Shown: piece after piece, positions 1 to 4,985 of the stretch | How positions within the stretch are numbered: the first letter of the stretch is position 1 | Layout: each line of letters begins with the position of its first letter | DNA from: a virus | Virus record (IMG/VR): IMGVR_UViG_3300042878_001341 | Span: 1 to 64,000 of that record | Direction: 5' to 3' (one strand) | Length of the DNA: 64,000 bases | Translations under genes and position numbers: made by a program | Notes under the pieces: model-generated | Told to the model about the DNA's origin: nothing | Database searches by the model: none | Seen by the model: only the letters and a program-made list of their open reading frames with translations

Positions 1-1080
1 CTTATTTAAATTCTCAGCAATTAACGCCTCACGTTCCATTACCTTTTCAGGTTTCAATCTTGTTAGACGACCTTCAGCTCCAATTAACTCATCAATTAAT
101 TTTGTTTTTTCATCTTTGGCTTCAGTTGCCAAAGCGGCATAATCCATAGTCAAATCACCATCAGGTGATTTAAGGTTACCACTGAATTTACCTCTTACTC
201 TTGCCAATGTTTCTTTACAATATGCGATGAACCATCTTCTTACCCAAACTTGAGCCGGATTATTAAGATCCAACCAACTAATTTTATCGTAAGGTACATC
301 AGAAGGTAATTTAATAATATCAGGATTGTTTTTTAAACATGCGTCTCTATCTTCAGGACCAACATCGTAATACCAATACCAAACTCTACCTTTCATCATT
401 GTAGAATTACCAAAGTCAAATTTACCTCCAGGTGTATTCATTAAGTGAACTGCCTTTTTACCCCCCGGTAATGCGGTTACTCTATATGTTAAATCACCTG
501 AAATAATTCTTTTTTGAATATTGATCTCTTGCATTCTTAATAACATATCAAATGCTGGCATCATAAAATAACTTCCTGCCATATTACCCATTTGTGCGAA
601 TCCACCGGCTCCACCAATACCACCACCAAATTCACCAAAACCAAATCCCGCACCAAACATTGAACTGTTTAAAGTTGCCGGTGTGAACCATAATAATTCG
701 TTAAGTTCTCTGTTTTCAGGGATTTCATAAATCTGTTGGTTGGGAACTAATTGTATAAAATCTTTTTTAAGTACTGAATCGCCACCCGCTTGTAAACCTA
801 CGATCTTAGAATATGCGTAAGTGTATCGTGTTTCGTAATCTAAACTTCTTGTTGTGAACGCCTTTGATAATGATTGGGTGTCCATATTTAAATTATACAA
901 ATTAGTCCACTGAGATTCAGTTAACCAATCTTGTACGTATTGTGAATATTCGTCAATAGAAAATTCAAGAAGAGTGTCCATTTGTTCCTCTTCCAATTCT
1001 ATACTTCTAAGTGGTGCACCTAAAACGTGTTTAACTTTTTTGTATAGTTCACTTCTTTGTGGTTCGCTTATTATTGACAT
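1..1080 (-). CDS. Neck (head completion) protein, gp13-like, 3' end outside window
   Basis: The frame is open from the ATG at 1080 to the window edge (360 codons, no stop). Residues 17-60 contain a GAP...IELEEEQ...LLEFSIDEY pattern that resembles the N-terminus of T4-type gp13 neck proteins (LGAP, then an acidic Q/L segment, then a helix). The later segment around WVRRWFIAYCKETLARVRGKF fits the family's C-terminal half. In T4 this protein joins the DNA-filled head to the tail. Residues 141-170 are an unusual Gly/Phe/Met-rich stretch not expected in the family. A TATTTAT motif lies 14 nt upstream on the minus strand. Family assignment is by remembered pattern only; a generic head-tail connector is the alternative. 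Confidence 0.55.
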   Translation of the reverse strand, partial: MSIISEPQRSELYKKVKHVLGAPLRSIELEEEQMDTLLEFSIDEYSQYVQDWLTESQWTNLYNLNMDTQSLSKAFTTRSLDYETRYTYAYSKIVGLQAGGDSVLKKDFIQLVPNQQIYEIPENRELNELLWFTPATLNSSMFGAGFGFGEFGGGIGGAGGFAQMGNMAGSYFMMPAFDMLLRMQEINIQKRIISGDLTYRVTALPGGKKAVHLMNTPGGKFDFGNSTMMKGRVWYWYYDVGPEDRDACLKNNPDIIKLPSDVPYDKISWLDLNNPAQVWVRRWFIAYCKETLARVRGKFSGNLKSPDGDLTMDYAALATEAKDEKTKLIDELIGAEGRLTRLKPEKVMEREALIAENLNK

Positions 1081-1105: not shown

Positions 1106-2194
1106 TTATTTTGTTCTTAACAAATATAACTCATTAACAAATTCCCAATTTACATGGTTCCAAAAGTTATTGATGTATTCGTCACGTTTGTTACGATATT
1201 TTAAATAGTATGCGTGTTCCCACACATCAAGACCTAATAACGGGTATCCACCGTCCTTAACGACATTCATTAAAGGGTTATCTTGGTTAGGTGTGGATAT
1301 AATCTTCAATCTATTGTTTTTAGTTAAAATTAACCAAGCCCATCCAGATCCAAATCTATCTTTTGCTACCTGATTAAATTCGTCCTTTAATTTTTTAATA
1401 TTTCCGTATTGTTTTGTAATTTTTTCAAACACTTCACCACTTGGTTTCTGTTTAGTTGGACTTAACATTTTCCAAAATAATGCGTGATTAAAAGCTCCAC
1501 CAGCATTATTTCTAACTTTAGTGTCGTACTTACTAATGGTTTTAATTATGTCCTCTAATTCAACATCACCTTTCTTATTAGCAAGTGCATCGTTTAATTT
1601 TTTCACATAACCTTTATAATGTTTGTTGTAATGAACATCCATAGTTTCAGGATCAACAAATTGTTTCATTGATGAATATGAATATGGTAATTTTTCAATA
1701 CCAATTTTTTTCATCTCCATTATAAAATCTTTTTTAATGTTTTGTTTTTCAGAAATTAAAATTTGTTCGTTGATTAGATTAATTTTATTTTCTATACCTG
1801 TAAGTCCCTCAAAAACAAGTTCGTTAAATTGTGGGTATTCTTCTTCAAACATTTTAACTAATCTACCAGCATAAGCGTTTGCTTCATCTTCGTTTTGACC
1901 ACCAATGTTAGGACCTTGTTCTCTGTTAAGAACGTTTCTTTGGTAAGCATGAACCCATTCGTGAGCCAATGTTCTCATTATATCACGATTCAATCTACCA
2001 TCAGTTAAAACTTTAATACCATCTTCAGGGTGTTGACTACCTGTAGACATCCCCCCTATTTTTTGACCTACTAAATGAATAGTGATATCATTCTTTAATT
2101 GATAATTTCTTTGCAAAAATTTAATAAAGGTGTGAATTAACTCGTTATACTTAGAGTTAAGTCCTGAATTTGTACGTTTGATGCTTACTTTCAT
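1106..2194 (-). CDS. Zincin-like metallopeptidase fused to Fe/Mn superoxide dismutase
   Basis: This 362-aa protein has two parts. Residues 1-130 carry HEWVH (78-82) with a downstream Glu (E104 in NEDEANAY), the signature of an HExxH zinc peptidase. Residues 168-358 are a full Fe/Mn superoxide dismutase, converting superoxide to O2 and H2O2. Metal ligands are H188, H237, D323 and H327, with gateway Tyr Y196 and the DVWEHAYY signature. AGGAFNH and NQD (Q304) place the active-site Gln as in Mn-type enzymes. The His after the KH of KHH is Tyr here (Y193). Normal SODs are about 200 aa, so the N-terminal half is an addition. There is no signal peptide. The gene lies between a neck gene and a helicase gene, and two TATTTAT motifs sit upstream. 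SOD identity is firm; peptidase activity is inferred. Confidence 0.88.
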   Translation of the reverse strand: MKVSIKRTNSGLNSKYNELIHTFIKFLQRNYQLKNDITIHLVGQKIGGMSTGSQHPEDGIKVLTDGRLNRDIMRTLAHEWVHAYQRNVLNREQGPNIGGQNEDEANAYAGRLVKMFEEEYPQFNELVFEGLTGIENKINLINEQILISEKQNIKKDFIMEMKKIGIEKLPYSYSSMKQFVDPETMDVHYNKHYKGYVKKLNDALANKKGDVELEDIIKTISKYDTKVRNNAGGAFNHALFWKMLSPTKQKPSGEVFEKITKQYGNIKKLKDEFNQVAKDRFGSGWAWLILTKNNRLKIISTPNQDNPLMNVVKDGGYPLLGLDVWEHAYYLKYRNKRDEYINNFWNHVNWEFVNELYLLRTK

Positions 2195-2199
2195 TATTG

Positions 2200-2224
2200 A
2201 TAAATATTATCAATAACATAAATA
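2200..2224 (-). promoter_or_regulatory. Two TATTTAT motifs, zincin-SOD gene
   Basis: Minus-strand copies at 2200-2206 and 2218-2224, just upstream of ATG 2194 in the short gap after the helicase gene. Confidence 0.5.
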
Positions 2225-2225
2225 T

Positions 2226-3989
2226 TTACCTTCTCTTATTAATTAAGGTAAGGATTTCTTCCACAACATCACCAACGTTTTCAGGTTGTTGATCCCCCAT
2301 TACTGTTCTAATGATTTCCTTTTTACGATTTAGGATATCATATACCGCACCTTCTATTGTATTTTCATACAATGGGTAGTATACAAGTACGTTTGATTTT
2401 TGACCATAACGATATGCTCTATCTTCAGCCTGAGCGTGTTCTGCGGGAACAAATGATAGGTCATTCATAATAACAACCTCAGCTGCAGTTAAAGTTAAAC
2501 CTACACCTGCAGCTTTTAAGTTTCCAACAAATACTTTAATTTTATCGTTCTCTTGAAACTCATCAACCGCATTTTGACGATGAGGTTTGGAACAACTACC
2601 ATCTAAATAAACCGCCTGTTTACCAAAGTGTTGATAGATAGTTTGTAAAGTATCGGTGAAGTTAGTGAAGATTATAACTTTTTTACCTTGTTCAATGATA
2701 TTCTCAGCAAACTCAATAGTTTGGTTTGTTTTCTCATTTGCGATAACTTTTCTTACCTTCATCAATTTTGAGAACTGAACCGTAAGAGATGATGATTCAT
2801 CTTTTTTATTGTCAAACCAATCATAATATTCTCCCATCAATTCTTCATACTCTTTTGATTTCAAACGAAGATATACTGGTGAAATAATTTTATCAGGAAG
2901 ATCTAAAACATCTTCTTTTAATCTACGAAGAATTTGTTTTGATGTACGATCACGTAATTCTTCTAAGTTGGATGCACCTGTTACGTTCCAAACTTTTCTT
3001 TTACCCGCCATAAATTGGTACCCCTGACAATAACGAATGGCATAAGCCATCCAATTCTGAGCAACAGGTGATTCAATTATGTTTAATAAATTATAATAAT
3101 TCATTGGACGAGATGTCATCGGAGTTCCTGTTAATAACCAAACTCTTTTTATGTTCTTAACGTAATGATTAATAATTTTTGTTCTCTGAGCTTGTGGATT
3201 TGAGATCATATGTGCCTCATCTAAAATAACTAATTCAAATTCAGATTGATTCAATAAAGATTTACCTTTGTCTTTCATATCATGAAAGTTTTTAAGGATA
3301 TCGTAGTTAACGATAACAAAATCAGATTCAGTTGAAAATTTCTTACCTTCTGCAATATATACAGATCTATCCGTATAATTTTCAATTTCACGTTGCCAGT
3401 TAATCTTTAGTGATGCGGGACAAATTATTAATATTTTCTTCGCTCCCGTTTCTAAAGCCGCGATAATTGTTGCGGTTGTTTTACCAAGACCCATATCATC
3501 AGCAAGAATGAATCGTCTTGATCCCGCCAATTTTTCTATTGCTTCTTTTTGATGATCCAATGGTGGTCGGTGATCATATTTGGAATAATCTACTTCAACT
3601 TTTTCAACATTGTGTGTTTTTATTAATGAAGATTTTGGAACCCAAAATTCTGTTAATGGATCCTTTTCAAAAAACTTACCCCAAATATGGTATGATTTTT
3701 CTTTTTCAACTAATAATTTTTCAATGTAAATTTTATCAGGTATTTCCATCAAATATCTTTCTTCTGCAAACTTTTTTGCAAAATAAGTATCAAGGTCAAC
3801 CCACTTACGAGCAACTTTAGGTGCCGTATCATAATAATTTACGATGTAGTCCGCTTGAGTTCTTGTAGGATAAAACTTTTTACTTGTTTCTTTTTTTGTT
3901 TTTAGATACAATATATGATTATTGGCACCCGAATACGAGTCCAATAAGGATAGCGCCTTATGCTCTATTAATGATGGGGTAACTTCCAA
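2226..3989 (-). CDS. SNF2-family DNA helicase/translocase (SMARCAL1/UvsW-like role)
   Basis: Superfamily 2 ATPase with SNF2 architecture. Motif I is DDMGLGKTT (about 3475-3503), motif II is DEAH (about 3211-3231), then LLTGTPM (motif III) and a helicase C domain ending with a QAEDRAYRYGQ motif VI. The N-terminal ILYLK...W domain and the short compact core resemble SMARCAL1/HARP-type annealing helicases. In T4 the comparable role, branch migration and fork remodelling, belongs to UvsW. The frame stays open to 4046, but the first 19 codons read through an A/T-rich leader and the promoter palindrome, so I place the start at TTG 3989 (ATT 3992 is possible). Transcription is divergent from the gene at 4048. 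Function is confident; the start is uncertain. Confidence 0.88.
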   Translation of the reverse strand: MEVTPSLIEHKALSLLDSYSGANNHILYLKTKKETSKKFYPTRTQADYIVNYYDTAPKVARKWVDLDTYFAKKFAEERYLMEIPDKIYIEKLLVEKEKSYHIWGKFFEKDPLTEFWVPKSSLIKTHNVEKVEVDYSKYDHRPPLDHQKEAIEKLAGSRRFILADDMGLGKTTATIIAALETGAKKILIICPASLKINWQREIENYTDRSVYIAEGKKFSTESDFVIVNYDILKNFHDMKDKGKSLLNQSEFELVILDEAHMISNPQAQRTKIINHYVKNIKRVWLLTGTPMTSRPMNYYNLLNIIESPVAQNWMAYAIRYCQGYQFMAGKRKVWNVTGASNLEELRDRTSKQILRRLKEDVLDLPDKIISPVYLRLKSKEYEELMGEYYDWFDNKKDESSSLTVQFSKLMKVRKVIANEKTNQTIEFAENIIEQGKKVIIFTNFTDTLQTIYQHFGKQAVYLDGSCSKPHRQNAVDEFQENDKIKVFVGNLKAAGVGLTLTAAEVVIMNDLSFVPAEHAQAEDRAYRYGQKSNVLVYYPLYENTIEGAVYDILNRKKEIIRTVMGDQQPENVGDVVEEILTLINKRR

Positions 3990-4024
3990 AATTTTGTTTT
4001 TTATAAAAATAACAATAAAAAAGA

Positions 4025-4040
4025 TATTTATCAATAAATA
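4025..4040. promoter_or_regulatory. Divergent TATTTAT/ATAAATA palindrome
   Basis: TATTTATCAATAAATA places one motif on each strand, 2 nt apart, between the helicase gene (minus) and the gene at 4048 (plus). A compact bidirectional late promoter is the best reading. Confidence 0.55.
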
Positions 4041-4047
4041 CGACAAA

Positions 4048-4560
4048 ATGGCGAATAGAGTTCCTATAACAAGATTAGGTAAATTTTTTGGAGAAAACGA
4101 TTTTAACCTTGAAGTTGAGATGGGTCAAGAGTGGTTAGTTGGTGATATGAATTACACTTGTGTGCTTTATAGAGTTGATAAAACCAAAACTAAAATTGAC
4201 AACGTATATGGTGAAACAGTTAAAGATGGGATTAAATTTTTACCCCCTGTTGAGTTTAACGCATATGTTGCGATTGCCGCACCTGAGAATAAATTTTTAG
4301 GTTCTACTAAAATGGATCAGTTTGAACCAGGAAATATTACAATGTCAGTTTATTTAAAAACTTTAGAAGATTTAGAAATTGATATTCAATTTGGTGATTA
4401 TGTTGGTTATTACGATACGGAAAGTTTTGTGAGATACTATACCGTTGTTAATGATGGTCGTGTCACTTCAGATATAAAACATACTTATAAAGGGTATAAA
4501 CCTTTTTATAGAACAATAATGGGATCACCTGTTGGTCCAAATGAATTTAGAGGATTATGA
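4048..4560 (+). CDS. Neck/head-closure region virion protein (gp14-like candidate)
   Basis: 170 aa from ATG 4048, chosen because TATTTAT lies at 4025-4031 and the longer frame from 3922 reads through the opposite gene and the promoter. The sequence is mostly beta-prone, with an FLPPVEFNAYV segment and a C-terminal RYYTVVNDGRV...YKPFYRTIMGSP. Its place directly before a gp15-like gene, with a gp13-like gene on the other side of the divergent region, suggests the T4 gp14 neck slot. The sequence match to gp14 is weak, so this is mainly a positional inference. The stop overlaps the next start (ATGA), implying translational coupling. Confidence 0.4.
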   Translation: MANRVPITRLGKFFGENDFNLEVEMGQEWLVGDMNYTCVLYRVDKTKTKIDNVYGETVKDGIKFLPPVEFNAYVAIAAPENKFLGSTKMDQFEPGNITMSVYLKTLEDLEIDIQFGDYVGYYDTESFVRYYTVVNDGRVTSDIKHTYKGYKPFYRTIMGSPVGPNEFRGL

Positions 4561-4985
4561 GAATAATAATTACTGAAGAACAGGAAGAGTTGTTAAAAAA
4601 TAATATTAACGATTTAATCGGCAAAAAAGTTATGTGTTATTATGACTTACACAGACATACTTTTTCTGTCACATATAAAGGACTTGTTATGTTAAAGGCT
4701 GACTATTTAAGATTAAGTGATGTTGAATTTAGAGTAAGAAAGGGTGGTAAACAAAAAGTTAGAGATGAACAAAGAAAAAATGTACACGCATTTGTAATTG
4801 GTCATTTAGATGATTATTGTGAGTTCCCTTGTGAAGATATTCCCCAACCTGAGTCAAATGAAGTAGTAACATATAATCCTTACAAATACGATTCCTTCGT
4901 AATCAAAAGTACTGAAGAACCAATTTATAAGGCAAATGAAATTGAAATGATTAACATTAAAGATAAAATATTTTTAATAAACTAA
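4557..4985 (+). CDS. Conserved-looking hypothetical phage protein
   Basis: 142 aa; family not recognised. It begins MRIIITEEQ, a start I associate with small accessory proteins of this phage group, and contains basic (RVRKGGKQKVRDEQRK) and acidic (DDYCEFPCEDIP) patches with three cysteines. No transmembrane segment or catalytic motif is evident. It overlaps the upstream gene by 4 nt and ends one nt before the next, so it is co-expressed with neck/tail genes and may be a minor structural or assembly factor. Confidence 0.6.
   Translation: MRIIITEEQEELLKNNINDLIGKKVMCYYDLHRHTFSVTYKGLVMLKADYLRLSDVEFRVRKGGKQKVRDEQRKNVHAFVIGHLDDYCEFPCEDIPQPESNEVVTYNPYKYDSFVIKSTEEPIYKANEIEMINIKDKIFLIN

Follow-up and report, generated by a model that had tools for sequence, protein, structure and literature searches.

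A Mn-type superoxide dismutase fused behind a zincin-like domain in a T4-like phage, and its possible packaging into the head

A 362-codon open reading frame of a T4-like phage joins a zincin-like domain to a Mn-type Fe/Mn superoxide dismutase (SOD), a combination for which no precedent was found: the same fusion was absent from 50,697 annotated phage records, whose SODs match the SOD half only, in a few cases with part of the linker, and from the literature searched. The gene lies on the minus strand (1106..2194, read from 2194 to 1106) of the stretch of viral DNA analysed here (the window; 64,000 nucleotides, positions 1 to 64,000 of IMG/VR record IMGVR_UViG_3300042878_001341), and its product comprises the zincin-like domain (aa 1-129), a linker (aa 130-160) and the SOD (aa 161-362). 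The fusion protein is probably the precursor of an SOD that is packaged in the head and processed by a protease, in the style of the T4 internal proteins; its virion location, cleavage and injection, and both of its enzyme activities, we infer from sequence. Phage-encoded SODs are usually regarded as enzymes produced during infection. If the packaging reading is true, the phage particle itself would carry antioxidant chemistry, as an SOD from one locus whose leader bears a prohead-protease motif.

An initial annotation had placed HEWVH at aa 78-82, Glu104 and a complete Fe/Mn SOD within one frame at 1106-2194, leaving the strand unstated; both the coordinates and the single frame are borne out. 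It had also raised a frameshift between the halves, for which a check was made and none found: the frame is uninterrupted here and in every one of the 76 distinct full-length versions recovered, which rules out a frameshift or assembly artefact and confirms that the two domains occur together across phages. Since gene order is also kept wherever neighbours are within reach, the fusion is no assembly accident. A whole-protein scan of IMG/VR confirmed 153 relatives, the best 80 of which are nearly all full-length with 66-100% identity, and a scan with the N-terminal domain gave 421, among the best 80 of which only one (L144, ending at a contig end) has no SOD. The 76 distinct full-length fusions were aligned, and the invariance of catalytic residues was scored in a 33-sequence set. 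In the predicted structure of the full protein two folded parts are separated by a poorly predicted segment (130-176). The two-domain reading of the annotation therefore stands, but it had recognized neither the SOD as the conserved unit nor the third domains of relatives, nor that the linker is best read as an old SOD leader.

The SOD part (1106..1714, minus strand) is recognized by Pfam Sod_Fe_N (E 5e-20, 72.2 bits against a cut-off of 27) and Sod_Fe_C (E 1.6e-39, 134.5 bits against 20.9), which together cover aa 166-355, and it is complete, as had been claimed. All four metal ligands (H188, H237, D323 and H327) are present and invariant, as are Q304 and Y196 of the Mn type and the dimer residues Y330 and E326, the latter the dimer-bridge Glu; the roles of these residues are presumably those established for MnSOD. 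The protein is thus classed as an Fe/Mn SOD of the Mn type and would be expected to have dismutase activity. Over the structural alignment it shares about 46% identity and all ligands with the MnSOD of the bacterium Sphingobacterium sp. T2 (5a9g/6gsc), from which it differs in having NAGGAFNH for NAGGHYNH and KHY for KHH; the bacterial enzyme has no such leader and no fusion. The H-to-Y change to which the annotation had drawn attention is real (Y193, invariant in the family), but the site is the second His of K-H-H and not a metal ligand.

The zincin-like domain (1808..2194, minus strand; core conserved in A1/A3) contains the HEWVH motif (aa 78-82; 1949..1963, minus strand) and, within an ExEAN motif, Glu104 (1883..1885, minus strand), the proposed third zinc ligand. 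H78, E79, W80, H82 and E104, which comprise the HExxH and third ligand of zincin metallopeptidases, are invariant in 33 aligned relatives. Because the fold search with the full model was swamped by SOD matches, the N-terminal domain was modelled separately. This structure prediction, a course the annotation had suggested, gave a pLDDT of 86 and placed HExxH on one helix and the Glu on the next, as in small zincins; the best PDB matches, all weak, were YbeY (E 0.095) and the zincin peptidase aureolysin (E 0.58). With the first 160 aa, no curated peptidase family in Pfam or NCBIfam scored above its cut-off, and the name is for this reason kept at "zincin-like". What the annotation called zinc-peptidase-like is accordingly supported by motif, helices and a confident model, with no curated family reached, and the weakness of the structure matches makes a zincin-like fold plausible, not proven. 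The phage domain has the HExxH helix and second helix in common with YbeY and other small zincins, but its proposed third ligand is the Glu of ExEAN, and the family and structure matches are not significant. The sole match in a bacterial genome is to a Flavobacteriales MAG (L193, 1-234), in which a zincin domain of the same family, cut at the contig start, occurs without SOD. The host is likely a member of the Bacteroidota, judging from this match and from the SOD.

Between the two folds, the linker (1715..1807, minus strand; low pLDDT), which is proposed to be a head-targeting and processing segment, contains three candidate prohead-protease sites, all on the minus strand: I-N-E at aa 141-143 (1766..1774; [LIVM]xE in 70/76 fusions), I-S-E at aa 147-149 (1748..1756; 60/76) and, abutting the SOD fold, I-M-E at aa 158-160 (1715..1723; 76/76). 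The linker is variable in sequence, but E160 is invariant, always with I, L or V at P3, and E143 and E149 are kept in 70 and 64 of the 76 fusions, respectively. Linkers hold on average 3.2 L/IxE sites where 1.2 are expected (joint column permutation, p = 0.002), although so short a motif arises easily in an amphipathic helix with many Leu and Glu residues. A stricter tag pattern matches only 3/76 linkers, so that the claim is built on L/I-x-E and not on the stricter pattern. Moreover, the tag pattern was defined after inspection of the data, and independent support comes from a prediction about leaders described below.

In T4, the gp21 prohead protease cuts after L/I-x-E (PMC9026906), and a capsid-targeting sequence carries internal proteins, and foreign enzymes fused to it, into the head and then into the cell (PMC9026906; PMC5694885). 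Relatives of the window phage, single contigs of which reach 274-296 kb, carry a T4-type tail sheath, whose nearest annotated relatives include Microcystis phage Mel-JY01 and Flavobacterium phages, together with gp23 and a gp21-type protease. The protease (Peptidase_S77, E about 1e-23) is found in three relatives (G001, G002 and G006) and aligns with T4 gp21 via conserved ELNHP and SSRG blocks. In the capsid protein, SFLINE|A at about residue 60 corresponds by inspection to the T4 gp23 cleavage site SFLTE|A at residue 65, the automatic alignment placing a gap inside the stretch. Protease and capsid genes are known from the relatives; neither lies within the 64-kb window, the phage's own record being partial.

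Many accessory proteins of G002 begin with short leaders, such as MKIIITE.Q or MNLQENIQRIKQMMG..NE. With one protein counted per body family, so that the bodies are unrelated, the first 30 aa of these proteins contain 56 occurrences of [LIV][TSNQ]E against 13.9 expected (p 1.7e-17), and outside the accessory region of G002 there is no excess over expectation; these are simple pattern counts, an EM motif search having been swamped by the initial Met. From the G002 leaders, the gp21 and targeting facts for T4, and the SFLINE|A capsid site, the linker was expected to be an old SOD leader. It was predicted before the scan that zincin-less SODs exist with leaders ending in the same [LIV]xE site, and this proved to be so. 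An SOD-motif scan made independently of the zincin gave at least 107 loci, of which at least 73 are zincin-less, at least 30 are fusions and at least 4 are cut, these and the other counts being of distinct sequences rather than independent phages, as contigs overlap between samples. The zincin-less SODs have an N-terminal leader of ~30-50 aa that is homologous to the fusion linker, and [LIV]xE at the SOD start ends all 74/74 distinct readable leaders. Thus the segment stands at the N terminus in the zincin-less SODs and is internal in the window protein, and L/I-x-E before the mature domain, as in T4-type internal head proteins, is present in 76/76 fusions and 74/74 zincin-less proteins with L, I or V at P3. 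An export signal was ruled out by inspection, the leader having no hydrophobic core.

The locus, too, is common to both forms. In fusions and zincin-less SODs alike the order is helicase-SOD-gp13, the window having an SNF2/UvsW-like helicase gene (2226..4046, minus strand) upstream of the fusion and, 25 nt downstream, a gp13-like neck or head-tail adaptor gene (1..1080, minus strand, incomplete at the window edge; phrog_211, E 7e-10), which substantiates the neighbouring neck gene of the annotation. Order and strand of the helicase gene are unchanged in 150/150 loci, as are those of the gp13-like gene in all 128 loci where it was found; in zincin-less stretches, many of them short, the figures are 75/77 and 60/77. 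On sequence comparison the conserved unit is the SOD and not the fusion, and the best explanation for the linker is an old SOD leader in front of which a zincin was placed. A quick tree requires two changes in zincin presence, and therefore one gain and one loss, or two gains.

The zincin-less proteins also bear on two other accounts of the linker. If the zincin were a processing enzyme that cuts its own linker and frees the SOD, its invariant active-site residues and its direct junction to the linker would be accounted for, but the zincin-less SODs, 74/74, retain these sites as well, and we regard self-processing as very improbable. An internal translation start at Met161, giving both fusion and free SOD, draws on the invariance of this Met in 76 fusions and its position at the natural SOD start; it is slightly more improbable still, because zincin-less relatives may have Ala (L232, L262 and L312) or Gly (L228) there while the preceding [LI]xE is kept.

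A weightier alternative, though unlikely, is that the SOD is cytoplasmic, made during infection to protect replication, with the leader or linker serving as an uncut coiled-coil for oligomerization. SOD in cells works in the cytoplasm, the leader is a charged helix, and other jumbo phages (Pseudomonas phages PA5oct/MIJ3 and Vibrio phage 2.275.O) likewise encode Fe/Mn SODs, as stand-alone genes with only about 28% identity to the window SOD; that of MIJ3 is unfused among heat-shock and protease genes, including Clp. On the other hand, the fixed features before the SOD are the P1 Glu and a hydrophobic P3, many unrelated proteins bear similar leaders, and the gene adjoins a gp13-like head gene. 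On the question put by the annotation, whether the enzyme is virion-borne or cytoplasmic, the evidence favours a head-packaged, protease-processed precursor.

In the packaging mechanism proposed, the charged amphipathic segment ending in [L/I/V]xE, which in the sequences compared always stands directly before the SOD fold, would bring the protein into the prohead core, where a gp21-type protease would cut after the Glu and release the SOD from the preceding part. The mature SOD would remain in the head with the DNA, enter the host together with it, and remove superoxide in the vicinity of the genome, whether packaged or incoming. Comparison shows a zincin placed before the segment in one lineage and, in many phages, a further domain behind a second such segment, which makes the gene a multi-domain precursor; the zincin would be an active metallopeptidase and a second cargo. 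Because the SOD precursor looks built for head loading and trimming, an antioxidant enzyme may be delivered to the cell along with the phage DNA; this could benefit the phage by shielding its packaged genome in sunlit water or by countering superoxide when the phage enters the host.

The T4 internal head proteins and Alt similarly have a segment ending in L/I-x-E before the mature domain, and leaders common to unrelated proteins, with a gp21-type protease and gp23 present in the relatives studied here. The phage SODs differ in that the cargo is an SOD and the leader is longer (30-50 aa). Moreover, T4 targeting sequences are N-terminal, whereas the fusion has its segment internally, after the zincin, and there are several domains per chain. 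To our knowledge, no SOD occurs among the ejection proteins of the giant phages phiKZ and SPN3US. These proteins have propeptides of over 100 residues that are cut after Glu (PMC5694885), a likeness to the SOD precursor, but the phages belong to another lineage and the phiKZ cleavage motif is S/A-x-E (PMC9026906).

In closed frames the chain continues past the SOD in 48/85 fusions and 56/62 zincin-less SODs; the window protein has no such third domain. Most extensions form one cluster, and two further families are confined to fusions. Many members of the cluster have an E...D...QxK nuclease-like motif, an E ... D ... (Q/E)xK pattern of the PD-(D/E)xK kind being seen by eye in relatives; no Pfam match was obtained for the third domain, which by its motif is mostly nuclease-like. 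The density of [LIV][TSNQ]E per residue is 0.036 at the start of the post-SOD part and 0.0045 further on, compared with 0.038 in the linker and 0.0034 in the SOD. Paralogues of some small third domains occur as stand-alone proteins, with an N-terminal leader that can be aligned to the segment following the SOD (MKIIITENQSDKIN vs KKKNIITENQSDKIN). More tentatively, and with somewhat less than an even chance of being right, the chain could be a polyprotein head cargo, in which zincin, SOD and nuclease-like domain would be packed via shared leaders, cut in the prohead and co-injected as an antioxidant and attack kit. Frames of 700 aa in some relatives had suggested an SOD fused to the neck gene; this was rejected, as the extra part is the third domain, of three families, and gp13 is still a separate gene there. 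At four loci (L112, L105, L107 and L136) the fusion adjoins arrays of small paralogous genes, tagged and encoding about 148 aa each, and one copy appears fused to the SOD.

Dozens of unknown proteins bear similar leaders and are thereby marked as possible head cargo, which would allow candidate injected proteins of uncultured giant phages to be listed directly. At 183-284 kb of G002 (L178-L183), dozens of proteins with unrelated bodies have common N-terminal leaders ending in [LI]xE, of the forms MKIIITE.Q.., MKRIVRLTESDLTRIVRRVISEQ and MNLQENIQRIKQMMG..NE, which are possible head-cargo tags. Similar leaders occur in the window at 4557, 9721 and 26698, and in its own contig at 73495 and 75760 (L313). 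At 4557-4985 a Phage_L5_gp82-like domain (Pfam E 7e-29) lies behind the leader-like N terminus MRIIITEEQ.

The T4 late promoter TATAAATA was considered and rejected, since it is not enriched in the window (12 found vs 15.6 expected). A TATTTAT element (2200..2206, minus strand) lies upstream of the fusion start codon and is a putative promoter. Nearly all the SOD genes have it shortly before the start codon (52/53 distinct fusions, 63/64 zincin-less SODs), and in G002 it precedes 74 genes in gene orientation vs 29 when reversed, ~2.5 times as many, structural and tagged genes included. Upstream of the many genes that have it, TATTTAT tends to lie either about 11-13 or about 20-22 nt from the start codon.
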